A stretch of DNA of 64,000 nt. Source: Rudanella lutea DSM 19387 (lineage in GTDB: Bacteria; Bacteroidota; Bacteroidia; Cytophagales; Spirosomataceae). Each line of letters starts with the position of its first letter. The stretch's first letter is position 1. A model generated the notes under the pieces. It searched no databases and had not been told where the DNA came from. It saw only the letters and a program-made list of their open reading frames with translations. Both the position numbers and the translations under genes were made by a program. The stretch spans positions 2,772,694 through 2,836,693 of the forward strand of contig NZ_KB913013.1 of NCBI RefSeq assembly GCF_000383955.1, in the 5' to 3' direction. Shown in pieces: positions 17,166 to 47,498 of the stretch.

Positions 17166-17169
17166 AAAT

Positions 17170-17206
17170 TGTTTTTAGTTTTTGGTTTATCGTTTAGGGT
17201 TATAGG
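17170..17206. repeat. Single arm of a degenerate heptad repeat (GTTTTTG type)
   Basis: From about 17171 the plus strand reads GTTTTTA, GTTTTTG, then GTTTATC, GTTTAGG, GTTATAG in 7-nt register. It lies between the acetyltransferase and aminotransferase genes. No inverted partner is visible within the gap. Confidence 0.55.
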
Positions 17207-17295
17207 AACTATTCGGGCAAGTCAATTGCCGTTGATTCAGTGCATTATCAAACGTTAACTTCACACCCTCCACCGCAAACCACCAATACACTAGC

Positions 17296-19719: not shown

Positions 19720-19724
19720 GGGCG

Positions 19725-26266: not shown

Positions 26267-26451
26267 AGTATGTGTTGGTAGCGTAGTGATAGCCAGAGCA
26301 GGAGCGGTCTGACTGTTGGGTAAACCCGCCGAGACGCAAAATAGTGGCATGTCCCTGTCACTTATTTTCTGGGAGTCAGATGGTTGCTTTGCTAACGTTT
26401 TTGCGTCAAAACCCAAAGGGCTTCAACCAACCGCAGGAAGCCCCGCACGGT

Positions 26452-27709: not shown

Positions 27710-27785
27710 AAAAGAATGCAGCCACTCACATACCCAGTTACAGCAATCAAGCCCATAACTTGTGTATAATCATTTGTTAAAGAGC

Positions 27786-28582: not shown

Positions 28583-30769
28583 ATGAATATCGAGGTCTTA
28601 CTCCGGTTGCTGAAACAGCACCTGATCTGGTTTATTGTCTTGCCGCTACTCACAGCCGGCATGGCGTTTTATGCGACCCGCAACGAGGTAAAAACCTACA
28701 TTTCGTACGCGTCGTTGTACACGGGTCTGTCGTCGGGCTACTCGATCACGTCGGACCAGCGCCCTTCGTTCGGCGATCAGTCGGCGAGTGCGTTCGACAA
28801 CATGCTCACCACCCTCAAATCAAAGGAGACTCTGCTCCGAATCGGGACTAACCTCCTGGCCGATCACCTGCAACTGAGCGAACCCGACACGCTCGTGCTT
28901 GGGCGCGCGGGCTTCGAGGATTTGCAACAGGCGTTTCCGACCGATTGGCGACTCATACTGCCCATTTACGGCAACGTGACCGACCTGCGCCGGGCCATCG
29001 ACAGCCTGGCCAAGGTACCCACCGACAACCCGGTGAAGCAGTTGCTCCTCAAGTCAGAGCTGCCTTACTCGATTCTGGTTATCGGCGAAAAGCTGGACGC
29101 TACCTCCCGCAAAAACACCAACGACGTGATGCTGCTGGAGTACGAGGCCAACGACCCGGCCGTAGCCCAACGTACGCTGGTACACGCCATCTCGATTCTG
29201 AATGAGCGGTACTCGACCCTCAAAACGGCCGAAACGAACTCGGTTGTGGGGTATTACGAAGACAAGCTCAAAGAAGCCAAAGCCGCCCTCGACAAGGCCG
29301 AGGGTAATTTGCAGGCATTCAGCATACAGCACCGGGTGCTCGATTACGACGAAGAGGCCCGCAACGTGGCTGCCTCCCGCGAAGCCCTCGTGGGCGAATA
29401 CAACGAAGAGCTGATGCGCCGGAATGCGGCCAAGGCTGCTATGGAAGCCCTCCGGTCGAGAATGGGTCAGCAGGGAACCATCAAAAAAGTCAACAACGAC
29501 CTTTCGGAGAAACAGCGTAAACTGGCTCAGGCCGAAGCGCAACTGGCCAACGCCCGGGCGTATAACCAACCCAAGCCCGTGATTACGCGCTTGCAGACGA
29601 AAGTAAAACAGGCCGAAGACGAACTGAAAGCCAGCGCCCAACGGTACGATGCCGCCACGACCACCGACGAATCGGTGCCGCAACAGACCATTAGTGCCGA
29701 TCTGCTGGCCAAAACCCTTGAGTACGAAGAATCAGCGGCCCGGCTGGAAGTGTACCAGCGTCGGATCAGCGAGTTAGACAACAAAACGAGTCAGTTCAGC
29801 CCACTGGGAGCGCAGCTGCGACAATTGAAGCGCGACCTGAGCGTAGCCGAGAAAGAGTACTTCGACCTGCTCCAGCACGTGGATCAGTCGCGGACCAAAC
29901 GGCAGGATGTAGCCGGGGGCAAACTCGAACCGCTCGACGCGCCCGACTACCCGCTGCTCCCACAACCTTCCAAACGGCTTCAACTGATTATTGTCGGGTT
30001 CGGTGTCGGCATATTTCTGGCTCTGTTGCTGACGGCCCTCCGGTTCTGGCTCAACAAGAGCCTCAACTCGCCCGAGCAGGCCGAGCGGCAGATTGGCCTG
30101 CCTATGACGGCCATTTTCCCGACGGTGAAAAAGCCTATGGTGTATTCCCGCGTGACCCGCACAGCCCGCACCATGTTTGAGCAGTTGTTCAACGCCATCA
30201 ATATCGAAATTGCCCAGAGCCGAGACAAACCGTACCCGCCCGTACTGACCCTATTCAGTATTCGGGGGAAGCAGGGTAAATCGTGGGTGGCCGAGGGCCT
30301 CAACCGGCTGTACACCGACGCCGACCAGCGGGTGGCCTATTGCTACCCCCGGCAAAGTCCGAAAGAACGGCGGGTGTACAAAAACGGGGTTACCCTGTTT
30401 CCGTACACCGTTCGGGCCGACTTCATGAACGTGACGAGCCTTGAGTACCTCATCGACCACGATCATGACTTCGACCCCTCGCAGTTCGACCGGGTGGTGC
30501 TGGAACTGCCCCCGCTCATCAGCAATCAGATTCCGGTATATCTGATGAAAGAAAGCGTACTATCGCTGCTGGTGGTGGATGCGCAAAGTAGCTGGGGCCG
30601 GGCCGAAAAACAACTCCTGAACCTGTACGCCCGTGTCACCAACCAACCTATGCTGGTGGTACTGAACCGGGTGGGGGGCGATCTGTTGCAGATTACCCCA
30701 CCCGCCGATGTCAAGCAGGCTCCTGTGTACCGCGATCAAACGTTACAGCCGCAACGCTACGAATCGTAG
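28583..30769 (+). CDS. Wzc/GumC-like polysaccharide co-polymerase with degenerate kinase domain
   Basis: The protein has 728 residues. The first membrane segment (about 14-33) and the second (about 465-490) frame a periplasmic coiled-coil region, as in Wzz/Wzc chain-length regulators. The C-terminal cytoplasmic domain resembles a BY-kinase. Its P-loop SIRGKQGKSWVAEGL (about 558) keeps GKS but lacks the PGEGKS form, the Walker A-prime strand reads VVLELPP without the Asp, and the tail has no Tyr cluster. Nucleotide binding is doubtful and phosphorylation unlikely. It is transcribed with the TolC-like gene and precedes the NRPS/PKS by 135 nt. Confidence 0.85.
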   Translation: MNIEVLLRLLKQHLIWFIVLPLLTAGMAFYATRNEVKTYISYASLYTGLSSGYSITSDQRPSFGDQSASAFDNMLTTLKSKETLLRIGTNLLADHLQLSEPDTLVLGRAGFEDLQQAFPTDWRLILPIYGNVTDLRRAIDSLAKVPTDNPVKQLLLKSELPYSILVIGEKLDATSRKNTNDVMLLEYEANDPAVAQRTLVHAISILNERYSTLKTAETNSVVGYYEDKLKEAKAALDKAEGNLQAFSIQHRVLDYDEEARNVAASREALVGEYNEELMRRNAAKAAMEALRSRMGQQGTIKKVNNDLSEKQRKLAQAEAQLANARAYNQPKPVITRLQTKVKQAEDELKASAQRYDAATTTDESVPQQTISADLLAKTLEYEESAARLEVYQRRISELDNKTSQFSPLGAQLRQLKRDLSVAEKEYFDLLQHVDQSRTKRQDVAGGKLEPLDAPDYPLLPQPSKRLQLIIVGFGVGIFLALLLTALRFWLNKSLNSPEQAERQIGLPMTAIFPTVKKPMVYSRVTRTARTMFEQLFNAINIEIAQSRDKPYPPVLTLFSIRGKQGKSWVAEGLNRLYTDADQRVAYCYPRQSPKERRVYKNGVTLFPYTVRADFMNVTSLEYLIDHDHDFDPSQFDRVVLELPPLISNQIPVYLMKESVLSLLVVDAQSSWGRAEKQLLNLYARVTNQPMLVVLNRVGGDLLQITPPADVKQAPVYRDQTLQPQRYES

Positions 30770-30904: not shown

Positions 30905-33900
30905 ATGCATACATCTATCCGTCAAGAGGCTGGGATCGACGCTGTTTCCGGGTTGCGGGTGCATGGGCTTGTCGAACAGGCAGCTCGGGCACACGCTAAC
31001 CAGACAGCCGTCGTATTCGGCGACCAATCACTCACCTATCAGGCCTTAAACGACCGGGCCGACCGACTGGCGCGCGTCCTGATCCAACACGACCCGACGG
31101 CGCGCCTGATCGGCGTCAGCACCACCCGGTGTCTGGAAATGGTTGTGTCAGTTCTGGCTATCCTGAAGGCGGGCAAAGCATACCTACCCCTCGATCCAAC
31201 CTACCCCTCGGCCCGACTGGCGCAGGTCAAAGCCGATTCGGGTGTAACTACCTGCCTGGCACCGGCTTCTGACACCCACCTGTTTGCAGAGCTGGGGCTG
31301 CGGGTAATGGCGGCCGATACAACCACCGATGCGCCTGCCAGCCCGGCCGAACAGCGCTCAACCGCATACGTACTGTACACCTCGGGCTCAACCGGCCAAC
31401 CCAAAGGCGTTTGCATGGGGCATGGGCCGCTGGTCAACCTGCTTCGCTGGCAAGCCGACGCATCGGCGGCCGGTGTCGGAAGCCGCACATTGCAATTGGC
31501 TCCGCTCAGCTTCGATGTCTCGTTTCAGGAGATATTTGCCACCCTGAGTACAGGCGGTACGCTCGTACTGATCGACGATACGCTCCGGCTCGACCTGACA
31601 GCCCTATTGCATTTTATCGACGAACAGGGGATCAACCGACTTTTCGCCCCGTTTGTGGCCTTGCAATACCTTGCCGAAGCCGCTGTGGCAAGTGAGCGAT
31701 ACCCAACCTCTTTGCAGGAGGTGATGACGGCGGGCGAGCAACTGAAAATCACCCCACAGGTGGCTCAGTTTTTTACCGCACTCCCCCACTGTACCCTGTT
31801 TAATCAGTACGGCCCCACCGAGTGCCATGTGGTTACGCAGTTGACGCTCACCGGCACCCCAGCAACCTGGCCTGCCCTACCTACCATTGGCCACCCGATA
31901 CCGGGCGTGTACGTGTACATTGTCGATGAGGCCCTCAACCCCGTACCAAATGGCGAAACGGGCGAAATTTGCCTTGGTGGGGTGTGCGTTGCCGAAGGAT
32001 ACCTCAACCAGTCCCGGCTTACCGACGAGAAATTTACCCTCCTGACCGCGCCCGATCACGCACCCGTACGCGTGTACCGTACCGGCGACCTGGGCCGCGT
32101 TCTGCCCGATGGCTCGATTGATTTTCTGGGTCGTCGCGACGATCAGGTGAAGATTCGGGGGCACCGGGTCGAGCTGGGCGAAATTGAAGTAGTCATCAGC
32201 AGCCTGGAAGGCATTCGGCAGGTGGTAGTGGTAACCCGTGAAGGTGCTGGCAGTCAGCACCAGATCGTTGCTTACGTCGTTGCCGACGAAGAACGGACAA
32301 GCCCGGCCGACCTCCGAAAAACGTTGCAAAGCCGTCTGCCCGAGTACATGATGCCCTCGGCGTTTGTCTGGCTTCCCGACCTGCCCCGTACCACCAGTGG
32401 CAAGGTAGACAAGAAAGGACTGCCCGCGCCTGAACGCCAACGCCCCGACACCCTTGGGCCGTTTCGGCAGGCACGTACCCCGCTCGAAAAACAGCTTGCC
32501 CGCATCTGGGGTGAGGTGCTACACCTGGACGAAGTAGGTCTGGACGACCGGTTTTTCGACCTGGGGGGTAACTCGCTGCTGGCGCAACGGCTGGTGGCGG
32601 CTCTGCGGCAACAAGGTCATACCCTATCCGTCACGAAGCTGTACCGGTTTCCGACCGTAGCCGGTATAGCGCAGGTGCTGGGGCAAGCAGCCCCGCCCGA
32701 CGTTGCACCTTCCGATGCCCTCAGGCAGCCGAGCACTCGCCAAGCCGCCGGCGACATCGCCATTATTGGCCTCTCAGGGCGGTTTCCGGGTGCGACTACC
32801 CTCACCGAGCTCTGGCAGGTGCTGGTTGAGGGCCGGGAAACCACTCAGTTTTTCAGCGAAGCCGAACTCGACCCCTCCCTACCCGCTTCGGTGCGGCAAG
32901 ACCCCTCGTACGTAAAAGCGCGGGGTATTCTGGAAAACGTCGACGGGTTTGACGCCCACTTTTTTGAGTTAACACCGGCCGTGGCCCAACTCATGGACCC
33001 GCAGCAACGGCTGTTTCTGGAAATTGCGGCCGAAGCGCTGGAGCAAACCGGCTACCTGAAACCAAACCATGGCCAGAAAGTAGGCGTTTTCGCCGGGTCC
33101 GGCAACAACACCTATTTCCCCAACAACGTACAGCCCAACACCCGGTTGGTTGATGCCGTAGGTAGCTTTCAGGTGATGACCCTGAATGAGAAAGATTACA
33201 TTGCCTCGCGCACGGCTTACCAGCTAAACCTCAAGGGACCGGCCGTCAGTGTGTACGCTGCCTGTTCCACCTCCCTGCTGGCGATTGCACAGGCCGTACA
33301 AAGCCTTCGGAGTGGGCAGTGCGATGTAGCCCTGGCGGGGGGAGTCAGTATCACGGTGCCCATCAAAAGCGGCCATTTGTATCAGGAAGGAGCCATGTTC
33401 AGCCGCGACGGGCACTGTCGGCCGTTCGACGCCGACGCGCAGGGCACCGTTTTCAGCGATGGTGCGGGCGTTGTTCTCCTCAAACCGCTCGAAGCCGCTC
33501 AACGCGATGGCGACACCATTTGGGCGGTGGTGAAAGGTGCGGGTGTAAACAACGATGGGGGTGGCAAAGGAGGGTTTACGGCCCCCAGCGCCGAGGGGCA
33601 GGCCGAGGCTATTCGGATGGCCCTGAACGATGCGGGCGTCGGCCCTGAGCACATCAGCTACGTAGAGGCTCACGGTACCGCCACGCCACTCGGCGACCCC
33701 ATCGAGGTTGAGGGATTGACACTGGCTTTTGGCCCAAACGTACCTAAACAGCAATGCGCAATTAGCTCCATCAAGAGCAATATGGGCCACCTGACGGCCG
33801 CTTCGGGTGTAGCCGGGGTGATCAAAACGGTGCTGGCGCTGCGGCACCGGCAATTACCGCCCTCCCTGCATTTCAAACGGCCTAATCCGGCCATCGACTT

Positions 33901-36900
33901 TGCCAATAGCCCGTTTTTTGTCAACCATACGCTCCGGCCCTGGCACGTCACCAAAGGGCAAAAGCGGCTCGCGGGCGTTAGTTCGCTGGGGGTTGGCGGT
34001 ACCAACGTCCACCTGATTCTGGCCGAAGCGCCCGAGCCCGGCATTCCGGCCGAACCGGAGAACAATGCCCGCCCGGTTGGGCTCCTTACCTGGTCAGCTA
34101 AATCAGCAACCAGCCTGACAGACTACGCCAGCCAACTGGCCCGCGCCCTGCCCAACCCGACCCTATCCGAATTGACCGACGCTGCCTATACATTACAAAC
34201 CACCCGGCCCGATTACCCTCATCGCCGGTTTGTGGTGGCAGCTCCCGGCACCGATGCACCGGCCCAATTGACCAATGCCCCCGCGAGTCATTCGAGCAAC
34301 ACGTTGACCCAGGTTCCCGACGAGTTGGTTTTCCTGTTTCCGGGGCAGGGGACGCAATTTCTGGGTATGGGACGCAACCTGTACAAAAACGAGCCCGTAT
34401 TCCGGCAGGCTGTGGATACCTGCGCCAGCCTTCTGACCGAGCATCTTGACGGCGATATTCGAGCCGTGATGTACCCGGATGTTTCGGATGCAAAAGCCGA
34501 ACAGCGTCTCAACAACACCCGCTACACCCAGCCTGCTCTGTTTGTGACCGAGTACGCTCTGGCTACGCTTTGGAGCAGTTGGGGCCTCAGGCCCACGGTT
34601 TTATGCGGGCACAGTATCGGTGAATTTGTAGCGGCTCATCTGGCGGGTGTATTCAGCCTTTCCGATGCCCTGCGGCTGATTGCCATACGCGGGCAACTCG
34701 TGAGCGAGCAACCACGCGGACACATGCTGTCGGTACGCCTGAACGCCGATGCCGTACGGGAGCTGTTGCCGCCAACGCTGTCGATAGCGGCCATCAACAG
34801 CCGCAACCTGTGCGTAGTGGCCGGGCCAGACGAACCCCTGGCTGACTTTGCCCGGCTTCTCGATACGCACGCCATTCCGAACAAACCGCTGGCCACCAGC
34901 CACGCGTTTCACTCGGCCATGATGGACCCGGTGGTGGGTATTTTTGAAGAAACCGTCCGCCAGATTAGCCTGAACCGACCCCAGTCCCCCGTTGTATCGA
35001 CCGTAACTGGCCAACTGCTTACCGATACGCAGGCCACCGACCCGCGCTACTGGGCGAATCACCTACGCGATACCGTCCGGTTTGCCGATGCGGCCGATAC
35101 GCTGCTGGCGCTGGGTCATTCGGTATTTCTGGAGGTTGGCCCCGGTCAGGCACTGACCACGCTGATTCGTCAACAGGCACTCCCCAAACCCGCCTGTGCC
35201 CTACCCGGCATGGTGTCGCACCCCAATTGGGAAAGTGCCTGCCAGGCTATGCTCACTACGCTCGGCCAACTCTGGCTTTACGGCCTCACACCCGACTGGC
35301 AGGCGGTTTACGCCGGTCAGGCACGGCAACGGGTTACCTTACCAACCTATGCGTTCGATCGGAAGCGGTGCTGGGTAGACCCGCCCACCGCCCCCCGGCA
35401 ACCGGCTTCTGAGGCAAGCGCCCCTCTACCGCAGCCAGCTCCGTTGGGGACTGCGGCATCCGTCTCTATTCCACAGTCTATCCCTACCACACTGATGCGT
35501 AAACACCTAATCCTTTCTAAAATAAACACCCTGCTCGAAGAAGCCTCTGGGCTGGACATTTCCGGCGGAAGCCCCGATCAAGCCTTCCTGGAACTGGGTT
35601 TCGATTCGTTGCTGCTGACACAGGTTGCCCAGACCCTTAAAAAAGAGTTTGGCCTACCCATCACCTTCCGGCAACTGACCTCGGCCTATGCGACGCCCAA
35701 TCAGCTGGCTACGTACCTCGATGCGTCGTTGCCCATCGATCAGTATCAGCCGACGCCCGCTCCGGCTCCGCTACCAACGTCGGCCGCTCAGTACCCACAA
35801 CCCGACAGCGCCCCGCAGCCACTCGTGGCAGGCGACACACCCCTGGGGCTGATTGCCCAGCAACTTCAGATTCTGGCCAAACAGGTAGCGCTGATGCAAG
35901 GCACAGCACCAGCCCAGCAACCGCCTGTTGTACAGAACTACCCGGCCCCTGCACCCGTAGTCGAGAGCACGCCCGTAAGCAAACCCGTGGGCGTTTCGAC
36001 ACCCGATATCACACCCGAGGAAGCCGTAGAGTTGAAAAAGCCATTCGGGGCTACCGCCCGCATTGAGCGGCAGGCATCCGAGCTGACACCCGTTCAGGAG
36101 GCTTTCATTCAGAAGCTGACGGACCGCTACAATCAGAAAACCGCCGGGAGCAAGGCCTACACCGAAACCCACCGGGCTACCATGGCCGACCCGCGGGTTG
36201 TGACGGGTTTCCGCCCACGTACCAAAGAGCTGGTTTACCCGATTGTCGTGAATAAATCGGGCGGGAGCCGCCTGTGGGACATCGACGGCAACGAATACAT
36301 TGATGCGCTCAACGGCTTCGGTTCCAACATGTTTGGCTACCAGCCCGACTTTATGAAGGCCATTTTGCACAACCAGATCGAAGCCGGGTTTGAGGTGGGT
36401 CCCCAGCATCAGCTGGCGGGCGAAGTGTGCGAACTGGTTCGGGCGTTTACGGGCCTCGACCGGGTGGCCTTGTGCAATACCGGCTCCGAAGCGGTGCTGG
36501 GAGCGGTACGCATGGCCCGCACAGTAACCGGCCGCAACCTGATTGTGGCCTTTTCGGGTTCGTACCACGGAATCAACGACGAAGTGCTGGTACGGGGCAC
36601 GAAAAAAGGCAAGTCGTTTCCGGCGGCATCAGGCATCATGCCGGAGTCGGTGCAGAACATGCTTATTCTGGAATATGGCACCGACGAAAGCCTCCGCCTG
36701 ATTCGCGAACGGGCGCACGAGCTGGCGGCCGTACTGGTGGAGCCGGTGCAGAGCCGCCGACCGGAGTTTGTCCCGATCCAGTTTCTGAAAGAGGTACGCA
36801 CGATTACGGCCGAGGCCGGGGTAGCCCTCATCTTCGACGAAGTGATCACGGGCTTCCGAATGCATCCGGGGGGAACGCAGGCCCTGTTTGGCATCCGGGC

Positions 36901-37585
36901 CGACCTGGCAACCTACGGTAAAGTGGTGGGCGGAGGCCTGCCCATCGGCGTGATTGCGGGCACCCGCACCTTCATGGATGCCCTCGACGGCGGGCATTGG
37001 CAGTTCGGCGATGCGTCGGTGCCGGAGGTGGGTGTCACGTACTTTGCAGGCACGTTTGTGCGCCACCCGCTGGCACTCGCGGCCGCCAAAGCGTCGTTGC
37101 GTCACATGCAGGCGGTGGGCCCGGCCCTGCAAGAAGCCCTGACCGCCAAAACAACCCGGCTGGCCAGCGCGCTCAATGCCTTTTTCACGCAGCAGGGATT
37201 GCCCATGTACGTAGCGCATTTTGGCTCACTCTGGAAAATCAAGTGGCATGAAGATATTCCCTACGGCGAACTGCTCTTCACACTCATGCGCGAAAAAGGA
37301 ATTCATGTCTGGGATGGCTTCCCCTGCTTCATGACCGAAGCCCATACCGATGCCGAGATTGACACCATCGTCCGGTGTTTTATGGACAGTGTGCACGAGT
37401 TAACCGAAGCTACTTTTTTGCCCCGAAAACTGATAAATGGCCTTAAAACTTCACCCGATCCAGTATCTTACGAGATTTCACCCGTACCCGGTGCCCGCTT
37501 AGGGCGGGATCAACAGGGTAACCCCGCCTGGTTTGTGCCCAATCCGGCACAGCCCGGCCGGTACTTACAGGTCGAACTACAGTAA
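30905..37585 (+). CDS. Hybrid NRPS-PKS: A-PCP-KS-AT-PCP-aminotransferase
   Basis: The protein has 2226 residues. Loading A domain (about 25-505) has YVLYTSGSTGQPKG at 155 and Lys500; binding-pocket residues by hand alignment are D204 V205 Q208 F247 M274 A276 Q301 V309 V310 K500, close to proline codes. PCP1 has Ser557. KS (about 617-1040) has Cys787, His923, His962. AT (about 1140-1440) has GHSIGE with Ser1237 and HAFH at 1333, the malonyl signature. PCP2 has Ser1568. A Pro/Gln-rich linker (1600-1710) leads to a class III aminotransferase (1710-2170) with Lys2006. The C-terminus GARLGRDQQGNPAW is the segment common after such aminotransferases. No KR, DH or ER is present. It should make an amino-acid-derived beta-amino acid thioester; no C domain precedes it, so it starts the chain. 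Confidence 0.95.
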   Translation: MHTSIRQEAGIDAVSGLRVHGLVEQAARAHANQTAVVFGDQSLTYQALNDRADRLARVLIQHDPTARLIGVSTTRCLEMVVSVLAILKAGKAYLPLDPTYPSARLAQVKADSGVTTCLAPASDTHLFAELGLRVMAADTTTDAPASPAEQRSTAYVLYTSGSTGQPKGVCMGHGPLVNLLRWQADASAAGVGSRTLQLAPLSFDVSFQEIFATLSTGGTLVLIDDTLRLDLTALLHFIDEQGINRLFAPFVALQYLAEAAVASERYPTSLQEVMTAGEQLKITPQVAQFFTALPHCTLFNQYGPTECHVVTQLTLTGTPATWPALPTIGHPIPGVYVYIVDEALNPVPNGETGEICLGGVCVAEGYLNQSRLTDEKFTLLTAPDHAPVRVYRTGDLGRVLPDGSIDFLGRRDDQVKIRGHRVELGEIEVVISSLEGIRQVVVVTREGAGSQHQIVAYVVADEERTSPADLRKTLQSRLPEYMMPSAFVWLPDLPRTTSGKVDKKGLPAPERQRPDTLGPFRQARTPLEKQLARIWGEVLHLDEVGLDDRFFDLGGNSLLAQRLVAALRQQGHTLSVTKLYRFPTVAGIAQVLGQAAPPDVAPSDALRQPSTRQAAGDIAIIGLSGRFPGATTLTELWQVLVEGRETTQFFSEAELDPSLPASVRQDPSYVKARGILENVDGFDAHFFELTPAVAQLMDPQQRLFLEIAAEALEQTGYLKPNHGQKVGVFAGSGNNTYFPNNVQPNTRLVDAVGSFQVMTLNEKDYIASRTAYQLNLKGPAVSVYAACSTSLLAIAQAVQSLRSGQCDVALAGGVSITVPIKSGHLYQEGAMFSRDGHCRPFDADAQGTVFSDGAGVVLLKPLEAAQRDGDTIWAVVKGAGVNNDGGGKGGFTAPSAEGQAEAIRMALNDAGVGPEHISYVEAHGTATPLGDPIEVEGLTLAFGPNVPKQQCAISSIKSNMGHLTAASGVAGVIKTVLALRHRQLPPSLHFKRPNPAIDFANSPFFVNHTLRPWHVTKGQKRLAGVSSLGVGGTNVHLILAEAPEPGIPAEPENNARPVGLLTWSAKSATSLTDYASQLARALPNPTLSELTDAAYTLQTTRPDYPHRRFVVAAPGTDAPAQLTNAPASHSSNTLTQVPDELVFLFPGQGTQFLGMGRNLYKNEPVFRQAVDTCASLLTEHLDGDIRAVMYPDVSDAKAEQRLNNTRYTQPALFVTEYALATLWSSWGLRPTVLCGHSIGEFVAAHLAGVFSLSDALRLIAIRGQLVSEQPRGHMLSVRLNADAVRELLPPTLSIAAINSRNLCVVAGPDEPLADFARLLDTHAIPNKPLATSHAFHSAMMDPVVGIFEETVRQISLNRPQSPVVSTVTGQLLTDTQATDPRYWANHLRDTVRFADAADTLLALGHSVFLEVGPGQALTTLIRQQALPKPACALPGMVSHPNWESACQAMLTTLGQLWLYGLTPDWQAVYAGQARQRVTLPTYAFDRKRCWVDPPTAPRQPASEASAPLPQPAPLGTAASVSIPQSIPTTLMRKHLILSKINTLLEEASGLDISGGSPDQAFLELGFDSLLLTQVAQTLKKEFGLPITFRQLTSAYATPNQLATYLDASLPIDQYQPTPAPAPLPTSAAQYPQPDSAPQPLVAGDTPLGLIAQQLQILAKQVALMQGTAPAQQPPVVQNYPAPAPVVESTPVSKPVGVSTPDITPEEAVELKKPFGATARIERQASELTPVQEAFIQKLTDRYNQKTAGSKAYTETHRATMADPRVVTGFRPRTKELVYPIVVNKSGGSRLWDIDGNEYIDALNGFGSNMFGYQPDFMKAILHNQIEAGFEVGPQHQLAGEVCELVRAFTGLDRVALCNTGSEAVLGAVRMARTVTGRNLIVAFSGSYHGINDEVLVRGTKKGKSFPAASGIMPESVQNMLILEYGTDESLRLIRERAHELAAVLVEPVQSRRPEFVPIQFLKEVRTITAEAGVALIFDEVITGFRMHPGGTQALFGIRADLATYGKVVGGGLPIGVIAGTRTFMDALDGGHWQFGDASVPEVGVTYFAGTFVRHPLALAAAKASLRHMQAVGPALQEALTAKTTRLASALNAFFTQQGLPMYVAHFGSLWKIKWHEDIPYGELLFTLMREKGIHVWDGFPCFMTEAHTDAEIDTIVRCFMDSVHELTEATFLPRKLINGLKTSPDPVSYEISPVPGARLGRDQQGNPAWFVPNPAQPGRYLQVELQ

Positions 37586-37593
37586 GCCGGAGC

Positions 37594-40500
37594 ATGGACA
37601 ACCGTACCACACAAATTACGTATAAACCCGTTGACTTCGACCCGTTTGCCGGGCCCGAAATCGAACGGCTTATTCCTATTACCGAACCGCAGGCCGAAAT
37701 CTGGACGGCCTGCCAGTTTGGGGGCGACGATGCGAACCGGGCCTACAACGAGTCGGTGTCGCTCCGGTTGCAGGGACAGCTCAACCGGGAAGCCTTCGAA
37801 AAAGCCTGGCACAGCCTGACCCAGCACCACGAAAGCCTGCGATCGGCGTTTAGTGGCGACGGAACGCGCCTGCTCATTTTTCAGGACCTTGCCCTACCCT
37901 TGATTTACACCGACGCCGGCCAACAGCCCGAAGCCGAGCAGCGGCAACACATCGCCGATTGGGTAGCCGCCGACGTCCGGCATACGTTCGATCTGCAACA
38001 CGGGCCACTCGTAAAGGCAAGCCTAATCCGGCTGTCCGATGAGCTACATCATTTTACCCTGACAGCCCACCACATTATCTGCGACGGCTGGTCGGTGGGT
38101 ATTTTGCTGCAGGATTTAGCCGCTTTCTATTCAGCTTACGCGCAGGGTCGGGTTCCGGTTGTTCGGCCCGCCGACTCCATAAGCCGGTTTGCCGTCGAAC
38201 AGCAGGCTGCCCACGAAAGCCAGGCCTCAAAACAGGCCGAGCAATATTGGGTCGACCAGTTTCGGCAGGTGCCTCCCCCGCTTCATCTGCCAACCGATTT
38301 CCCGCGCCCAAGTCGGCGCACATTCGCGTGTGCCAGGCACGACTACCCCGTTGACCCCGCTCTGATACGTGCTGTTCGCAAAATAGGCGCTCAGGCAGGG
38401 GGTAGTTTTGTGGTGACCCTACTGGCCGCGTACGAAGTGCTGTTGCACAAACTCTCAGGACAACCCGACTTAGTGCTGGGCCTGCCGGCCGCCGGTCAGC
38501 CAACAACCGGGTACGACCGACTGGTAGGCCACTGCGTAAACCTGCTCCCTTTGCGGAGTATGCTACGCACCGACGACTCCTTTTCGACGTACCTCGCTCG
38601 CCGGAAAGACCAGATTTTCGACGCCCTCGATCACCAGCAGTTCACGTTTGGGCGGCTGCTTCAGAAAATAGCCATTCCCCGCGACCCGTCGCGGGTGCCG
38701 TTGGTATCAGCCGTGTTCAACGTGGATATGAACCTCGACAGCGAGGTCGCGTTTGCAGGGCTTCAGCATCAGTTCCACAGCAACCCACGGGCCTTCGAAA
38801 ACTTCGACCTGTCGGTCAATGCGACGGGTTCGGGCGATACGCTATGCCTGGAATGGACGTACAACACCCAGCTGTTTCGCCCCGAGACTATCCAGTCGTT
38901 TCAGAATCGGTTTATCGCGTTGCTCGAAACGGTTGTTGAAAACCCCTCGGCTCCGCTCCAAACTTCGCCACCCACGCCCGCAGCGGCCCAACCCGATACC
39001 GAGCCACTGCATCGGTTGCTGAGCCAGACCGCCCGACAGTTTCCCGACAAAACAGCCGTTCGGTTTCGGAATCAGACGCTCACCTACGCGGAACTGGACC
39101 AGCAGGCCAACCAACTGGCCCACCTGCTGATTGCCAACGGGGTGCAGAAAGGCGACCGGATTGGCCTTGCCCTCGAACGCTCCGCCGAGCTGATTGTGAG
39201 CCTGTTGGCCATCATGAAAACCGGCGGCATGTACATTCCCGTCGACCCGCGCCACCCAACCGACCGGATCCAGTACGTTCTGGCCGACGCCCGTTGCTCG
39301 GTCCTGCTGACTAATCAGGCGCATCGGGGCCGAATCGACCTCCCCCTGCGCGAGCTGATTCTGGAAGACATCACCCCAACGCTACCCGATTACCCGTCGG
39401 ACGAACCCGCCATACCTGTTTCGCCCGACGATCTGATTTACGTGCTCTACACCTCGGGCACAACAGGGCGGCCCAAAGGCGTGCAGATTTACCACCGCAG
39501 CGTAGTGAACGTGCTGCGTAGCCTGACCCACCACCCCGGCCTGACTTCGGCCGATAAAACGGTGACGATGGGCACCATTGCGTTCGACATCACTACCGCC
39601 GAAATCTACCTGCCGTTGCTCGTAGGGGCCGAACTCGTGGTAGTTGATGCTGATACGGTGCGGAATGGGCAGGCTCTGGCCGAGCTGTTTCGGTACGAGG
39701 CCATCACGTTTGTACAAACCACCCCAGCCACCCTCCGCATGTTGTGGGAAACCGGCTGGCGCGGCTCCGCCAACCTGCGCGTGATTTCATGCGCCGAGGC
39801 TCTGCCCAAAGACCTGGCCGACAAACTGCTGGGCTCGTGCCGGGAGCTGTACAACTATTACGGCCCAACCGAAACGACGGTTTACGCAACGGGCAAGACG
39901 ATTTTACCCACCGACGACCTCATCACCATTGGCCCCCCAATTGGCGGGGTACGGATTGTGATTGTTGATGAGCACCTACAGCCCCTACCGGGCGGGATGG
40001 CGGGCGAACTGGTCATCGGCGGGGCCGGTGTGGGGGCTGGTTACCTCAACCAGCCACAGCTTTCGGCCGAAAAATTTGTTACCCTGCCCTTTGCACCGGG
40101 CGAGCGGTTTTACCGGTCGGGCGATTTGGGCCGGTACCTGCCCAACGGAGATATTCAGTACCTCGGCCGGATCGATCAGCAGATCAAGATTCGGGGGCAC
40201 CGGATCGAACCAGGCGAAATCGAGCATCAGCTACTCCGGTTGCCGGGTATCGACAATGCCGTGGTGATGGCCCGCGAAGACCAGCCCGGCGACCAACGAC
40301 TCGTGGCCTACGTAGTGCCGGGCACTAACCCAACCGACGAAGGCGATGCGGGCTGGAAGAGCCGCTGGGACGCTATTTACGAAGCGGGACTGGGCGACCC
40401 CACCGCCAACCCAGCCGACGTAGCCGACCTGGACATTCGGATTGCCGAGCAGCTTTCTAACCAGACAGACATCCGCGAGCAAGCCAACGAATGGCTGAAA

Positions 40501-42801
40501 CAGTCGATCAAACGCATCAAAGCCCTACGCGCCCGCCGAATTCTCGAAGTGGGCTCCGGGGCCGGGCAACTGCTGTTTGAGCTGGCACCCGACACCGACA
40601 GCTACATCGCCACCGACTACGCCCAATCGGCCATCGACAACCTGAACCAGCAACTCACCCGACGCAGCCTGACCAAACAAGGGCAGATTCGGGCGCAGGT
40701 GGCCCTGGCCGACGACTACTCCATGGTTGAACCGGCCTCGCAGGATCTGGTGCTGGTGCATAGCGTGGCACAGTATTTCCCCGACCTCCGCTACCTGCTC
40801 GACGTAATTCGGGGCGCCGTAGCGGCTACCGCATCGGGGGGCTGTGTGTTTGTGGGCGATATGCAGATGTATCGCCTTCAGGAACAACACCATACCGCCG
40901 ATCAGCTCAGACGGGCCGCCGACACCCAACGGGTTGCCGATTTCCGGGACGCGGTGAACCGACGCATCCGGCTCGACGACGAGCTCATGGCCGACCCGGC
41001 GTTTTTCTACCAGCTGCCAACCCTGATACCCGCTATTTCGGCGGTCGATGTGCAACTCCGCGAAGGGGCCGCCATCAACGAAACCACCCAATACCACTTC
41101 GACGTGTGGCTGTACGTGGGCGAGGCCCCAGCAACAGCTGATGTAGACACAAACCTCGACTGGAATACGGTAGGCTCCGTGGAATCGCTGGAAAGCTACC
41201 TACGCCAGCATCCGCTCCAGAGCGTACGGCTCACGGGTGTACCCAACGGGCGCACGGCAACCGACCATGCCTTGCGGCTCTGGATACACGATGCCGACGG
41301 TCTGGCATCTATTCAGGCGATCCGGCAACGGCTTACACAGGCTCCGACGGGCATCGACCCGAATCAGTTCTGGCAATTGGCCGGGCAAACGGGCTTCCGG
41401 GCCTTTGTTCGCTGGGCGTCGGATGGGCACGACAATGCGCTCGATGTCGTTTTTATTCCCGAAACGGCCGGTACCCAACTCCCCCCGATCCCCGCCGGGC
41501 TGGCCGAGGAAGCACAAGCGCCCCTCAGTTCGCTCGTGAGCGAACCCTACCGCGCCATCCCCACGCTTACAAAAGAGCAAATTGGGCAGTGGCGGCAACA
41601 ATTGGCCCAAACGCTGCCCAGCTACATGGTGCCCACCGATTTTGTAGCACTGGCCAAACTGCCGGTAACGGCCAACGGCAAAATTGACCGGAAAGCCCTG
41701 CCTGCCCCAGCGTTTGTTAAAAAAGAAGCCGCCCCGAAACCCTCGGGCGAACCCAGTACCCGCGAAGAAAAACAGATAGCTGCTATCTGGCAGGAGATAT
41801 TCGGACTGCCGGACATTAGCGTCGACGATAACTTCTTTGAGTTGGGCGGGCACTCCATGCTAGCCGTGCGGGCCATGGCACAGCTCGAACGCGAAACCGG
41901 TCGGCGGTTACCGTTGTCTACCCTGTTCGAAGCGCCCACCATTCGGGCTTTGGCCCGACTCATTCAGCCCGATCGGGCCTACAGCTTGCAACGGTCGCTG
42001 GTGCCTATTAAGCCGTACGGGAGCAAGCCCCCGATCTTTGTGGTGCATGGCGGGGGGCTCAATCTGCTCACGTTTAAAGGTCTGATAGAACACATGGATG
42101 CCGAGCAGCCCATTTACGGGTTTCAGGCCCGCGGCCTCGACGGCACCGAGGAGCCACTCGACAGCATGGAGGCTATTGCCGCCGACTACATCGAAGAGCT
42201 ACTCGAACACGACCCCAACGGCCCCTACGCGCTGGCGGGCTACTCCTTTGGCGGGTACGTAGCCCTCGAAATGGCCCGGCAGTTGCAGCAACAGGGGAAA
42301 GTGGTGAAGTTACTCGGCATGTTCGATACCAACGCCGAAGACTCGACCCAAAGCCGCCCCTTTTTGAGTCGGCTGACGTGGCGTTTAGGTCGGCAGATTC
42401 CAAAAATGGCCTGGATTGGCCGGTCGCTGCTCGAAGACCCGATCCCGACGCTCCGGTATCAGGGCGAATACGTTGAGCGGCAGGTAAAGGGTGTATTGAA
42501 GGCTGTGGGCTTAGCCAACACCGAGCCTATGCCCCTCGACGACCATCTGCAACGAATGATGGAGAAACACGAAACGGCTTTTCACACCTACCGGATTCAG
42601 CCGTACGACGGGGTCATTCATGTTTTCAAGGCGAAGAAGCGGCTTTATTACATCGAAGACCGCGAATTCCTCGGCTGGAAGAAGTTTGCCCTCCGGGGTC
42701 TGCACATTCACGATGTTCCGGGCGACCATGCCACCATGCTTTTGCCACCTAACGACAAGGAGTTTGCCCGAATTCTGCAAAAAGCCCTTGATGAGAGTTA
42801 G
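37594..42801 (+). CDS. NRPS: C-A(with inserted methyltransferase)-PCP-TE
   Basis: The protein has 1735 residues, 8 nt downstream of the first module gene. C domain (about 20-450) has HHIICDG with His160 and Asp164. A domain (about 475-900, resumed 1320-1370) has YVLYTSGTTGRPKG at 616; code residues D665 I666 A669 Q708 I731 C733 Y755 V763 Y764 K1363 match no substrate I know. A methyltransferase (about 915-1180; SAM motif LEVGSGAGQ at 984) is inserted after motif A8, the usual place of N-methylating domains. PCP has Ser1421. TE (1465-1735) has the triad Ser1551 (GYSFGG), Asp1578 and His1712. It should condense the upstream beta-amino acyl chain with an N-methylated amino acid and release the product. 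Confidence 0.95.
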   Translation: MDNRTTQITYKPVDFDPFAGPEIERLIPITEPQAEIWTACQFGGDDANRAYNESVSLRLQGQLNREAFEKAWHSLTQHHESLRSAFSGDGTRLLIFQDLALPLIYTDAGQQPEAEQRQHIADWVAADVRHTFDLQHGPLVKASLIRLSDELHHFTLTAHHIICDGWSVGILLQDLAAFYSAYAQGRVPVVRPADSISRFAVEQQAAHESQASKQAEQYWVDQFRQVPPPLHLPTDFPRPSRRTFACARHDYPVDPALIRAVRKIGAQAGGSFVVTLLAAYEVLLHKLSGQPDLVLGLPAAGQPTTGYDRLVGHCVNLLPLRSMLRTDDSFSTYLARRKDQIFDALDHQQFTFGRLLQKIAIPRDPSRVPLVSAVFNVDMNLDSEVAFAGLQHQFHSNPRAFENFDLSVNATGSGDTLCLEWTYNTQLFRPETIQSFQNRFIALLETVVENPSAPLQTSPPTPAAAQPDTEPLHRLLSQTARQFPDKTAVRFRNQTLTYAELDQQANQLAHLLIANGVQKGDRIGLALERSAELIVSLLAIMKTGGMYIPVDPRHPTDRIQYVLADARCSVLLTNQAHRGRIDLPLRELILEDITPTLPDYPSDEPAIPVSPDDLIYVLYTSGTTGRPKGVQIYHRSVVNVLRSLTHHPGLTSADKTVTMGTIAFDITTAEIYLPLLVGAELVVVDADTVRNGQALAELFRYEAITFVQTTPATLRMLWETGWRGSANLRVISCAEALPKDLADKLLGSCRELYNYYGPTETTVYATGKTILPTDDLITIGPPIGGVRIVIVDEHLQPLPGGMAGELVIGGAGVGAGYLNQPQLSAEKFVTLPFAPGERFYRSGDLGRYLPNGDIQYLGRIDQQIKIRGHRIEPGEIEHQLLRLPGIDNAVVMAREDQPGDQRLVAYVVPGTNPTDEGDAGWKSRWDAIYEAGLGDPTANPADVADLDIRIAEQLSNQTDIREQANEWLKQSIKRIKALRARRILEVGSGAGQLLFELAPDTDSYIATDYAQSAIDNLNQQLTRRSLTKQGQIRAQVALADDYSMVEPASQDLVLVHSVAQYFPDLRYLLDVIRGAVAATASGGCVFVGDMQMYRLQEQHHTADQLRRAADTQRVADFRDAVNRRIRLDDELMADPAFFYQLPTLIPAISAVDVQLREGAAINETTQYHFDVWLYVGEAPATADVDTNLDWNTVGSVESLESYLRQHPLQSVRLTGVPNGRTATDHALRLWIHDADGLASIQAIRQRLTQAPTGIDPNQFWQLAGQTGFRAFVRWASDGHDNALDVVFIPETAGTQLPPIPAGLAEEAQAPLSSLVSEPYRAIPTLTKEQIGQWRQQLAQTLPSYMVPTDFVALAKLPVTANGKIDRKALPAPAFVKKEAAPKPSGEPSTREEKQIAAIWQEIFGLPDISVDDNFFELGGHSMLAVRAMAQLERETGRRLPLSTLFEAPTIRALARLIQPDRAYSLQRSLVPIKPYGSKPPIFVVHGGGLNLLTFKGLIEHMDAEQPIYGFQARGLDGTEEPLDSMEAIAADYIEELLEHDPNGPYALAGYSFGGYVALEMARQLQQQGKVVKLLGMFDTNAEDSTQSRPFLSRLTWRLGRQIPKMAWIGRSLLEDPIPTLRYQGEYVERQVKGVLKAVGLANTEPMPLDDHLQRMMEKHETAFHTYRIQPYDGVIHVFKAKKRLYYIEDREFLGWKKFALRGLHIHDVPGDHATMLLPPNDKEFARILQKALDES

Positions 42802-42827: not shown

Positions 42828-42861
42828 AACCTGCAAGCCCGTTAGCTTGCAGGTTTTTTTT
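42828..42861 (+). terminator. Intrinsic terminator of the NRPS/PKS operon
   Basis: A 10-bp perfect stem (42828-42837 with 42846-42855), an 8-nt loop and a run of T after it. It overlaps the stop codon of the convergent flippase gene by two bases. Confidence 0.9.
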
Positions 42862-44299
42862 AGCCCTTCGCCAGCCGTAGAGCCCGCAAATCGGCAAACG
42901 AGAACTTGAAGGCCAGCGTCAGACCTACGTACGTGATGGCCCCGAGGGCTATCTGCGCCACGGTATGCACCATGCCCTCGTACCCTACCACCGTTTTGTA
43001 CGTAGCAATCACCGCTACCATGATCACCCCAAACAGCAACGGCTGTACAAAGTTTTTGAGAAACTGACCAAAGAAATCGCCCACGAGGTAGTGCACCAGA
43101 AAAAAGTTGGCCACGAGGTTAAAGAAAGTCGCCAGCAGAAACGAGACGGCAATGCCCGTTACCCCGTACAGATGCCCCAGCACGTACACGAGCGGAATCT
43201 TCACCACCAGCGTAGCCAGGTTTAGATAAAACAAAAGGTTGGGCTTGCCGCGCGTGAACGCGAGCGTAAACAGCGGGTGGCTAAGGCAGGCAAACAGGCT
43301 TACGAAAACGAAAATCTGAATCAGATGGGTGGTTTCCTGCCAGCCCGGCCCGTAAATCAGCGGAACAACACTTTCGGCGGTTATAAACAAACCGGCCAAC
43401 AGGGGCAGATTACAGAAGATAAGGACGTCCAGAATTTTCAGGTACGCTCGCTTCAGGCCTTCAATGTCATCTTTCATCCTAGCCAGAATGGGATAAGCCA
43501 CCTGAAGGATAATGGGATTCAGCCGGTTGATCGGGAAAACCGCCAACTGGTAAGCTAAGGTGTAGTAGCCGAGCATTTTCACGCCCAGAATGCTGCCGAT
43601 GAAAAAATTGTCGGCGTTGGACTGCACAAACCCCAGAATCCCGTCGCCCAGATTGTACACGCCAAAACGCAGGTGTTCCTGCACCTGATTGAGCGAAAAT
43701 CGAAAGGCAGGCTTGAAATACCGGCGTCCCAGTATCACCTGCGTAACACTCTTCACGGTTTGGCTGATCAGCTGCCCGATAATGAGCGACAGCTCCTGAA
43801 AGCCACTGTAGGCCAAACTGATAGTAGCCCCTGCCCCGATTACCGTGCCGATAATATCGACGGTGGCCACCGACCGGAACCGCAGCTCCTTTTCGAGCAA
43901 AAACATGTACAGCTGCCCAACGTACACGATCAGAAAATAGCCCGACGACAGGTGCAGTACCCTTTCGAGCCGGGGTTCGCTGTAAAACGAGACAATGGCG
44001 GGCGTTGCAAACTGAATCACCACAAAAATCAACGCGCCTACGAGCATGTTGAGCCAGTAGAGCGTCGATAGTACGGTGCGGTCGCTCTCCTGCTTGTAGA
44101 TGATCGAGTTGGAAAAACCGAGGTTGGCAAACACGCCGAAGAAGCCAATAATCAGGTTACTGACGCTAACCACCCCAAAATCGGCCGGGTCGAGCAGGCG
44201 GGCCAACAGGGCGACCTGCGCAAACTGAAATACGGTCGAAATCACGGTCGACAACGTGATCCATTTACCGCCGTCCATGGCCTTTTCTTTATTGCTCAT
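42860..44299 (-). CDS. MOP-family lipid-linked sugar flippase (Wzx/WzxC-like)
   Basis: The protein has 479 residues with about 12-14 membrane segments. The start MSNKEKAMDGGKWITLSTVI is typical of WzxC/TuaB-type flippases, with LLARLLDPADFGVVSVSNLI next. Wzx proteins move undecaprenyl-linked repeat units across the inner membrane. It overlaps the glycoside-hydrolase-like gene by four bases (ATGA), so they are translationally coupled. It is the only flippase seen in the window although two ligase-like proteins are encoded. Confidence 0.93.
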   Translation of the reverse strand: MSNKEKAMDGGKWITLSTVISTVFQFAQVALLARLLDPADFGVVSVSNLIIGFFGVFANLGFSNSIIYKQESDRTVLSTLYWLNMLVGALIFVVIQFATPAIVSFYSEPRLERVLHLSSGYFLIVYVGQLYMFLLEKELRFRSVATVDIIGTVIGAGATISLAYSGFQELSLIIGQLISQTVKSVTQVILGRRYFKPAFRFSLNQVQEHLRFGVYNLGDGILGFVQSNADNFFIGSILGVKMLGYYTLAYQLAVFPINRLNPIILQVAYPILARMKDDIEGLKRAYLKILDVLIFCNLPLLAGLFITAESVVPLIYGPGWQETTHLIQIFVFVSLFACLSHPLFTLAFTRGKPNLLFYLNLATLVVKIPLVYVLGHLYGVTGIAVSFLLATFFNLVANFFLVHYLVGDFFGQFLKNFVQPLLFGVIMVAVIATYKTVVGYEGMVHTVAQIALGAITYVGLTLAFKFSFADLRALRLAKG

Positions 44300-47400: not shown

Positions 47401-47498
47401 GCTTCTTTTTAGACGCTGGCAGCTTACCACAGTCACCCAACCTGCGCTATGGATTAAATAACGGGGCAGAACTTCCCAAATCCGCTTACTTTTACCCC

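Follow-up and report, generated by a model that had tools for sequence, protein, structure and literature searches.

What does a short PKS-NRPS assembly line make inside a polysaccharide locus of Rudanella lutea DSM 19387, and does its product serve the adjoining glycan? We addressed this question in a window of 64,000 nucleotides, meaning the whole stretch of DNA analyzed, which a preliminary description had credited with a complete minimal line in two genes, all visible catalytic residues, and a very small product. Both genes are intact open reading frames at the coordinates below. Pfam matches above cut-off gave the described domain order, with AMP-binding, two stretches of PP-binding, ketoacyl synthase, Acyl_transf_1, and Aminotran_3 in gene 1; gene 2 gave Condensation, AMP-binding interrupted by a methyltransferase, PP-binding, and Thioesterase:

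30905-37585, + strand: gene 1, A-PCP-KS-AT-PCP-aminotransferase, intact ORF, 2226 aa
30974-32404, + strand: A1 adenylation domain, code DVQFMAQVVK (Pfam AMP-binding; alignment)
32492-32677, + strand: carrier domain 1 (Pfam PP-binding)
32753-34237, + strand: ketosynthase with C-terminal extension (Pfam ketoacyl synthase)
34328-35176, + strand: acyltransferase, HAFH motif (Pfam Acyl_transf_1)
35507-35719, + strand: carrier domain 2, bounds approximate; its LGFDSL motif starts at residue 1564 (base 35594)
36233-37309, + strand: class III aminotransferase domain, MycA type (Pfam Aminotran_3)
37594-42801, + strand: gene 2, C-A-MT-PCP-TE, intact ORF, 1735 aa
37666-38964, + strand: condensation domain, HHxxxDG intact (Pfam Condensation)
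39022-40326, + strand: A2 adenylation domain, code DIAQICYVYK (Pfam AMP-binding; alignment)
40339-41583, + strand: methyltransferase inserted in A2 (Pfam; best PDB match 5wmm, an NRPS entry)
41773-41964, + strand: carrier domain 3 (Pfam PP-binding)
42031-42774, + strand: thioesterase, Ser/Asp/His in place (Pfam Thioesterase)
42828-42855, no strand: strong terminator-like hairpin of 11 pairs with a T run, separating gene 2 from the convergent flippase gene

The ketosynthase Cys/His/His, acyltransferase Ser/His, both carrier Ser, and aminotransferase Lys of gene 1 are in place, as are the condensation HHxxxD, carrier Ser, and thioesterase Ser/Asp/His of gene 2. A 4'-phosphopantetheinyl transferase (PPTase) gene, absent from the preliminary description, lies near the pair. 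The account of a complete line with its catalytic residues holds, and a very small product is supported. Gene 2 has the canonical layout of a terminal NRPS module, C-A-(MT)-PCP-TE with intact motifs, and contains the sole Condensation match genome-wide. The structure matched by its methyltransferase (5wmm) is presumably an interrupted adenylation domain. A standard thioesterase could simply free an unattached molecule, which counts against a glycan role. No match to a Bacteroidetes-type promoter pattern was found.

We propose that the two proteins act as one collinear line, which would make a very small product for the adjoining surface polysaccharide. Judging from its code, which appears to be proline-like, A1 would load an amino acid, most likely proline, onto the first carrier. 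The domain order suggests that the ketosynthase and acyltransferase, the latter with an HAFH motif that we take to be of the malonyl type, would add one malonate on the second carrier to give a beta-keto thioester. The in cis aminotransferase, given its close kinship to MycA, would convert the beta-keto group to an amine and yield a beta,gamma-diamino acyl unit; if A1 takes proline, this unit would be 3-amino-3-(pyrrolidin-2-yl)propanoyl. Gene 2 would join it to a small amino acid, predicted to be glycine in most relatives and uncertain in the window, with the embedded methyltransferase probably N-methylating the coupled amino acid in the window's lineage. The thioesterase would then free the product. 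The repeated gene linkage described below suggests that this product may become a glycan substituent, most likely an amide or ester, added before export.

The MycA, BamA, and McyE hybrids resemble gene 1 in that KS-AT-ACP is followed in cis by a class III aminotransferase, as Pfam places Aminotran_3 in cis after KS-AT-carrier in gene 1. The closest solved relative of the gene 1 aminotransferase, and its nearest PDB sequence, is the domain of mycosubtilin synthase MycA, which scores 398 bits where the best GSA aminomutase reaches 167, and bacillomycin BamA is 46.7% identical. MycA/McyE-type pathways use a starter loaded by an acyl ligase, either a fatty acid or a unit of the phenylacetate type. 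Unlike these hybrids, gene 1 opens with an amino-acid-type A domain and PCP rather than acyl-ligase (fatty/aryl) loading, and the next C domain lies on a separate gene. With an A-PCP-bound amino acid as its starter, the line is predicted to yield a beta,gamma-diamino acid. The MycA aminotransferase domain has been functionally characterized, with Gln as amine donor (PMC3870968).

The preliminary description knew of no described Cytophagales pathway with this domain order, but comparison with relatives does not support an order that is undescribed or special to this organism. From a scan of species genomes we kept the best 80 of at least 549 confirmed matches, and these 80 were all Bacteroidota by title. 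Among these best 80, whole-gene-1 relatives fall in one cluster at 76 loci, and a condensation domain lies downstream of the aminotransferase at 73. The order is widespread in Bacteroidota, which rules out a one-off arrangement. In two relatives (G258, contig C59, and G241), genes 1 and 2 match a single open frame of ~3970 codons, which implies that the gene products work in that order. The gene 1 layout had also appeared in 2013, when Table 2 of PMC3870968 listed Pedobacter heparinus C6XWU5 as A-CP-KS-AT-CP-PLP1 with predicted Nrp-Mal-Gly-Pk, a table row that, in the available portion of the source, carries no proven product or glycan context. A survey of 600 Bacteroidetes genomes matched 12 of 306 gene cluster families to known clusters, and its accessible text does not name the two-gene synthase family (PMC9248904). 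Among the papers listed in our literature search, which included Rudanella, none gave a product for the two-gene line.

Substrate codes vary among these relatives. In the commonest relatives the first adenylation code appears to be proline-like and the second glycine-like, predicting 3-amino-3-(pyrrolidin-2-yl)propanoyl-glycine. The calculated [M+H]+ of this Pro-C2-Gly product would be 216.134, or 230.150 when N-methylated; cyclization would give 198.124 and 212.139, respectively, and the free diamino acid 159.113. Some loci with incomplete reading frames gave no code, and the code of one protein (L136) read DFWNIGMVVK or DFWNIGMVHK depending on the alignment at one position. As read from the alignment, the A2 code of gene 2 has diverged from the glycine-like code that its relatives carry, and we know of no glycine code that DIAQICYVYK matches.

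The synthase pair sits in a Wzx/Wzy-type polysaccharide locus. The setting given by the preliminary description is real, with TolC-like and Wzc-like proteins upstream, the latter below curated cut-offs, and the flippase, GH39-like, glycosyltransferase, and Wzy_C genes downstream:

26344-27639, + strand: GT2 glycosyltransferase (profile match)
27762-28580, + strand: TolC-type outer-membrane protein, OEP (profile match)
28583-30769, + strand: Wzc/chain-length-determinant-like protein, 135 bp upstream of gene 1 (GNVR 19.5 bits, cut-off 27.7; TIGR03007 59.9, cut-off 278.85)
42860-44299, - strand: MOP-family polysaccharide flippase (NF007773 381.5 bits, cut-off 273)
44296-46398, - strand: GH39-like glycoside hydrolase with type IX secretion tail (weak profile match)
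46402-47436, - strand: CHU_C (type IX secretion) protein (profile match)
about 47499-48278, + strand: 4'-phosphopantetheinyl transferase, longest ORF 47364-48278 (profile match)
48248-49417, + strand: GT4-type glycosyltransferase (profile match)
49436-50389, + strand: conserved 317-aa protein, no family assigned (no match in a PDB search with its alignment; predicted fold with mean pLDDT 36)
50411-51280, + strand: GT11 glycosyltransferase (profile match)
51297-52499, - strand: GT4-type glycosyltransferase (profile match)
52483-53991, - strand: Wzy_C polymerase/ligase-type protein (40.3 bits, cut-off 31.7)
54034-55248, - strand: GT2b glycosyltransferase, whose relatives in Pedobacter and Mucilaginibacter likewise adjoin the synthase
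55269-56192, - strand: GT2c glycosyltransferase (profile match)
56171-57361, - strand: initiating sugar-phosphate transferase, Bac_transf (192.8 bits, cut-off 27)
57460-57960, - strand: response regulator receiver protein, recurs in the locus

With Wzx/Wzy-dependent exopolysaccharide loci the window shares the flippase, Wzy_C, initiating sugar transferase, glycosyltransferases, and outer-membrane protein, and it has a candidate co-polymerase in the Wzc-like protein; to our knowledge, a PKS-NRPS line is not a usual part of such loci. Dlt puts D-alanine on surface polymers, and in streptothricin an NRPS transfers beta-lysine to an amino sugar. In both of these systems, adenylation and carrier logic ends on a sugar polymer or sugar, as proposed here. 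Unlike in Dlt, no DltB-like or other enzyme attaching the product to a glycan was recognized among the scanned window proteins.

To quantify linkage to glycan genes, we compared the 69 full-length loci among the best 80 (of at least 549) relatives with 40 control windows placed at chosen rather than random fractions along contigs (30 Pedobacter/Mucilaginibacter and 10 Spirosomataceae). Within 10 kb, 49 of the 69 loci had at least one glycan gene versus 2 of 40 controls, and 40 of 69 had at least two versus 1 of 40, counts that favor the tested set because some query proteins originated in these loci or in relatives of them. When the queries were restricted to proteins of the window, 32 of the 52 loci whose names place them outside Spirosomataceae were linked versus 0 of 40 controls, or 31 of 51 once one locus truly of the window's own genus (L093) was removed. 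Since the loci share ancestry, p-values for this linkage overstate independence.

The glycan genes involved differ in kind among Rudanella/Spirosoma, Larkinella, Pedobacter, two Mucilaginibacter arrangements, and one Variovorax replicon from another phylum. Pedobacter synthases of two separate clades (mean 69% identical) occupy the same site beside the same glycosyltransferase pair (GT2b 78%). On a quick synthase tree with SH-aLRT support only and six family rows labelled by hand, the label "window-type glycan gene nearby" changed 11 times, at least 8 of them via well supported branches; two Mucilaginibacter loci labelled "none" (L123 and L130) lie on short contigs. Linkage as one inherited site was ruled out because glycan neighbors differ between lineages and the label changes on the tree. 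Such varied sugar-coat neighbors suggest that the compound may work with, or be attached to, a glycan. The tie to polysaccharide genes thus stood as recurrent linkage to varied glycan loci in several Bacteroidota lineages and one Variovorax, but no glycan gene was found within 10 kb in 6 of 7 Hymenobacter loci and both Flavobacterium loci, nor among 3 scanned neighbors of a second gene 1 copy elsewhere in the same genome, which has no gene 2 partner. The preliminary description had named relatives located far from any polysaccharide genes as evidence against its reading, and these loci supply that evidence in part.

These exceptions bear on a rather doubtful alternative, in which the thioesterase would release a small molecule that is secreted in free form, such as an antibiotic or a metal ligand, and the genes would lie in polysaccharide loci because these are variable, insertion-prone islands. 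Loci without recognized glycan neighbors favor it: a glycan gene lies within 10 kb in 1 of 7 Hymenobacter loci and in none of the two Flavobacterium or two Fibrisoma loci. It also fits a line that is complete in itself and has a PPTase gene nearby (the PPTase cluster is present at 51 of the best 80 of at least 549 relatives) and a patchy synthase, which passed in 12 of 345 phylum genomes (10 of these with at least 63% identity) and has plasmid copies. Conversely, the linkage is found again with other glycan loci and beyond the phylum, and the position within the island is not random, since 28 of the 30 linked Spirosoma/Rudanella loci have the pair 38 to 245 bp downstream of the Wzc-like gene.

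Further counts speak against a glycan role. A GT2b relative was missing at threshold in three Hymenobacter genomes and a fourth had a 30% one only, so a GT2b-type glycan is not required. GT2b was found in 151 of 222 family genomes and the synthase in 59 of 222, and at least 92 of the 151 GT2b genomes lacked the synthase, so the glycan is not dependent on the product. A count of 25 "unlinked" partner-bearing family loci was dropped, as that test covered relatives of two window genes on the same contig only, and other glycan genes lie near one Larkinella-genus locus and in Fibrisoma limi, in the latter about 11 to 15 kb from the synthase.

Another reading, which we consider quite unlikely, treats the product as a signal or modulator of exopolysaccharide production or multicellular form, with linkage reflecting co-regulation. 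Regulation would explain mixed glycan loci more easily than one chemical substituent, and the locus repeatedly contains a response regulator gene, but no recurring receptor or dedicated sensor beside the pair was recognized among annotated neighbor clusters.

The two-gene lines of Variovorax WDL1, RA8, and VAI-C have the gene 1 order of the window, with aminotransferases 56-57% identical. However, their gene 2 is C-A-PCP-C-PCP with no match to the window thioesterase or methyltransferase, their A1 codes differ, and the second gene 1 carrier motif was found in VAI-C only. In Variovorax paradoxus VAI-C, the pair is followed by a PPTase gene, two further genes, and then an exopolysaccharide locus annotated with polysaccharide export, tyrosine autokinase, sugar transferase, GDP-fucose synthase, and glycosyltransferases. 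Two Variovorax plasmids carry the pair near copper oxidase, cupredoxin, and copper-binding genes, which favors a role that we hold to be very unlikely overall, namely that the product, as a vicinal diamine, would be a ligand for metals, especially copper, in uptake or detoxification. Vicinal diamines bind copper, and the Spirosoma linguale plasmid copy, which has no partner, has DUF305 genes and a multicopper oxidase gene nearby. DUF305 also occurred three times in a tally of neighbor families (137 and 138 proteins, from 26 of 29 loci without window-type genes and 35 of 40 controls), yet the 25 commonest families listed included no TonB receptor, and no copper or TonB-receptor genes were recognized among the scanned window neighbors.

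Our preferred reading, which we hold tentatively and at slightly less than even chances, is that a dedicated line makes a short diamino acyl-amino acid that would serve the surface glycan, probably as a substituent. A wider generalization seems unlikely, in which exchangeable two-gene PKS-NRPS cassettes would supply non-protein beta,gamma-diamino acyl-amino acids as polysaccharide building blocks or substituents, their A codes and methyltransferase varying by strain like serotype sugars and the cassettes spreading across phyla.

If the product is put on the polysaccharide, this would be PKS-NRPS assembly-line chemistry decorating a bacterial surface glycan, which our literature search did not find described. 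If the product is free, the family would still be one without a reported product, for which a simple structure and mass are predicted. In either case, cultured members of the Bacteroidota carry the synthase family, among them Pedobacter, Mucilaginibacter, and Spirosoma.

The synthase is encoded by two intact genes separated by 8 bases and followed by a strong terminator-like hairpin:

30905-37585, plus strand: gene 1, 2226 aa, intact
37594-42801, plus strand: gene 2, 1735 aa, intact
42828-42855: strong terminator-like hairpin, 3' of gene 2

Pfam reads gene 1 as A-PCP-KS-AT-PCP ending in a class III aminotransferase, and gene 2 as C-A-PCP-TE with a methyltransferase inserted in its A domain. 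All catalytic residues checked in the two genes were present, in agreement with the minimal assembly line proposed in the preliminary description. Besides that of gene 2, no further Condensation domain was found in this genome. The 135 bp separating the upstream Wzc-like gene from gene 1 showed no plus-strand terminator-like hairpin, which would allow joint transcription of gene 1 with the export genes upstream.

The setting of the pair is a polysaccharide locus. Scanning the neighbors recovered the export pair, flippase, glycosidase and glycosyltransferases of the preliminary description and added further genes. On the 5' side are genes for GT2, TolC-type and Wzc-like proteins. The 3' side has a MOP-type flippase, a GH39-like protein that carries a type IX secretion tail, CHU_C and a 4'-phosphopantetheinyl transferase (PPTase). 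Further 3' are glycosyltransferases of types GT4, GT11 and GT2, together with Wzy_C, initiating sugar transferase and response regulator genes. The GH39-like protein keeps an Asn-Glu pair and a Thr-Glu pair in 6 of 6 aligned sequences, including the window's, which we take to fit retaining clan GH-A enzymes. The TolC/Wzc pair is part of the polysaccharide locus, and the peptide product need not be its cargo. A 317-aa protein (49436-50389), 70-74% identical to the window's copy across six aligned relatives, had no match in Pfam, NCBIfam or PDB and is a candidate for a further step of the locus. A second glycan cluster lies on the minus strand at 14463-23897 and encodes a sugar transferase, a DegT aminotransferase, a hexapeptide acetyltransferase, two GT4-type proteins, an asparagine-synthase-like protein and a Wzy_C-like protein scoring below the cut-off; for several of its genes, relatives are present in each of the two other Rudanella-group genomes read. 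The gene at 24491-26416, for an MsbA-like ABC exporter, is oriented away from the locus and, among the family regions read, was seen again only in the nearest Rudanella.

The closest PDB match of the gene-1 aminotransferase was mycosubtilin synthase 6kfm (E 4.7e-118), with free glutamate-1-semialdehyde aminomutases far behind. PMC3870968 describes the MycA aminotransferase domain as characterized: it acts within the assembly line, where PKS and NRPS meet, and Gln supplies the amine. The present line would have a similar mechanism but be started by an amino acid. The preliminary description knew of no Cytophagales pathway with this domain order. That the order is undescribed is not supported for gene 1, whose layout is the same as that of Pedobacter heparinus C6XWU5, which has a row in a 2013 table (A-CP-KS-AT-CP-PLP1, predicted Nrp-Mal-Gly-Pk; PMC3870968). 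The literature searched gave no report of this line's product or its glycan linkage.

Ten-residue substrate codes of the adenylation domains were read off alignments. The gene-1 code (A1) DVQFMAQVVK, found in the window and 34 of 75 readable genome rows, is presumably close to proline codes, and the gene-2 domain (A2) of one relative carries DVQFIAHVVK, which we take to be a proline code. The top PDB scores for A1, linear gramicidin synthase (as the sum of two stretches) and 8xjz 'Peptide synthetase' (411 bits), have substrates uninformative for A1; tyrocidine synthase 2, whose first module presumably takes proline, comes next at 347 bits, with tyrocidine synthase 1 behind it at 302 bits. A2 codes were of the DILQxGxxWK type in 45 of 70 genome rows, which we take to be close to the glycine code, with an exact match in three Hymenobacter rows. 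The window's A2 code, DIAQICYVYK, ends a series through DILQLCMIYK, DLTQICYIYK and DLVQICYIYK, and we know of no substrate code that fits it. Further rows carry what we take to be codes for Val, Asp and Thr, implying that products vary among relatives. Judging from domains, aminotransferase kinship and codes, the line would proceed by loading, malonate extension, amination, coupling/N-methylation and TE release. The predicted common product of the relatives is 3-amino-3-(pyrrolidin-2-yl)propanoyl-glycine (C9H17N3O3), of which the window's product is perhaps an N-methylated version.

Within the Spirosomataceae, gene 1 occurs in 59 of 222 genomes and 11 of 36 genera (E 1e-140 or better) and gene 2 in 57 of 222 (threshold 1e-180). 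The nearest named relative, Rudanella paleaurantiibacter, shares 96% identity with the window in the aminotransferase stretch, which places the window in that genus. In a phylum sample the aminotransferase passed in 12 of 345 genomes, 10 of them at ≥ 63% identity. The best 80 of at least 549 confirmed matches in named species genomes were all Bacteroidota by title and included Spirosoma, Larkinella, Fibrella, Fibrisoma, Hymenobacter, Pedobacter, Mucilaginibacter, Puia, Flavobacterium, Maribacter and others. A condensation domain lies 3' of the aminotransferase in 73 of these 80 loci, with one gene between in two Flavobacterium loci; two of the other seven are 3-kb contigs. Fifteen of the 73 have a methyltransferase domain downstream, its presence requiring at least 7 changes on the synthase tree. 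Two relatives have a single open frame (3971 and 3978 codons) that matches both genes. Several genomes hold an extra gene-1 copy without an adjoining gene 2, including the window's own (contig 1, 6285589-6292254, minus strand; 54% identical), whose A1 code we take to be threonine-like and whose flanks (6275000-6294999) carry a GNAT acetyltransferase and a phage-integrase family gene.

Glycan linkage was assessed in 69 full-length loci against 40 control windows, each 20 kb long and taken from synthase-bearing genomes. With 11 window glycan proteins as queries, a relative was found in 32 of the 52 loci not named as Spirosomataceae (31 of 51 after removing L093, a Rudanella-group genome) versus 0 of 40 controls. 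Broader query sets found at least one glycan gene in 49 of 69 loci versus 2 of 40 controls, and at least two in 40 versus 1. Related genomes are not independent, and exact p-values were given no weight in these counts. Linkage by the broader queries was common in Pedobacter (14/15), Mucilaginibacter (14/17), Larkinella (5/6) and Spirosoma (5/6), and rare or absent in Hymenobacter (1/7), Flavobacterium (0/2) and Fibrisoma (0/2). Of 30 linked Rudanella and Spirosoma loci, 28 have a distance of 38-245 bp between the pair and the Wzc-like gene. Among 137 neighbor proteins from loci without window-type genes, Pfam identified GT1 in 9, GT2 in 6 and a polysaccharide flippase family in 3; among 138 control proteins, GT2 appeared in 2 and GT1 was absent from the 25 families listed. 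Of 38 genomes with the synthase that were tested for the glycosyltransferase GT2b (54034-55248, minus strand, in the window), 33 had it, one of them only at 30% identity; in 20 of the 38 it falls inside the 10-kb flank, and in 24 no more than ~15 kb separates it from the pair. Across the phylum sample, GT2b occurred in 9 of the 10 genomes whose synthase is close and in 32 of the remaining 335.

The glycan neighbors differ in kind between loci. In one Larkinella-group genome, a series of GT1/GT4/GT2, acyltransferase and hexapeptide genes extends up to gene 1. A pair of GT2b and GT2c (the latter at 55269-56192, minus strand, in the window) lies downstream of the synthase on the opposite strand in Pedobacter and upstream on the same strand in one Mucilaginibacter group. 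In another Mucilaginibacter group the PPTase is followed by response regulator, sugar transferase, OEP and Wzc-like genes. In Variovorax paradoxus VAI-C (Pseudomonadota), gene 1, gene 2, PPTase, a hydrolase and an unnamed gene precede genes annotated as polysaccharide export, tyrosine autokinase, sugar transferase, GDP-fucose synthase, glycosyltransferases and polysaccharide biosynthesis. Two Pedobacter synthase clades, 69% identical mutually and 81% and 83% within, occupy the same position beside one glycosyltransferase pair. GT2b is 78% identical between the groups and GT2c 69%, not above synthase identity, the contrast thus being one of GT2b. The presence of differing synthases at a single glycan site resembles cassette exchange. 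Seven Pedobacter and Fibrisoma loci (L142, L144, L155, L159, L161, L102, L106) share a protein cluster encoded upstream of the synthase, whose one scanned member carries PycTM and HD domains, a Pycsar-effector type by Pfam name.

Relatives far from polysaccharide genes had been named as evidence against a glycan connection. Some loci fit this in part: no glycan neighbors were recognized at most Hymenobacter, the Flavobacterium and 3 of 17 Mucilaginibacter loci, whereas most Pedobacter, Mucilaginibacter, Larkinella and Spirosoma loci are linked. Nor was a glycan neighbor recognized for most partnerless gene-1 copies. Many genomes have the glycan locus without the synthase, and no enzyme attaching the product to a glycan was recognized among the window proteins scanned. 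In Variovorax WDL1 and RA8 the pair is near a TIGR04325 methyltransferase and copper genes, and the stretches shown held no full polysaccharide locus (one glycosyltransferase in WDL1). Given the unlinked loci, the synthase-free glycan loci, the lack of a recognized attaching enzyme and the Variovorax copper context, the product may instead be free, act as a signal or bind metal.

Copper genes flank the pair on two Variovorax plasmids. On Spirosoma linguale plasmid pSLIN02 (CP001771.1, 72886-79707), the partnerless gene-1 relative Slin_6901 adjoins a GNAT gene, in a stretch also holding DUF305 genes and a multicopper oxidase gene. Of the best 80 loci, 11 (L103, L105, L110, L113, L117, L120, L131, L145, L155, L163, L169) have a gene for a Cupin_8 (JmjC-like) oxygenase near the synthase, lying between genes 1 and 2 in Flavobacterium L163. 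Near gene 1 of WDL1 and RA8 is a gene for a 2OG-Fe(II) oxygenase. The recurrent Cupin_8 oxygenase may represent a tailoring step.

The mechanism itself would be MycA-like; the novelty would lie in the possible glycan role of the line's product, if true.
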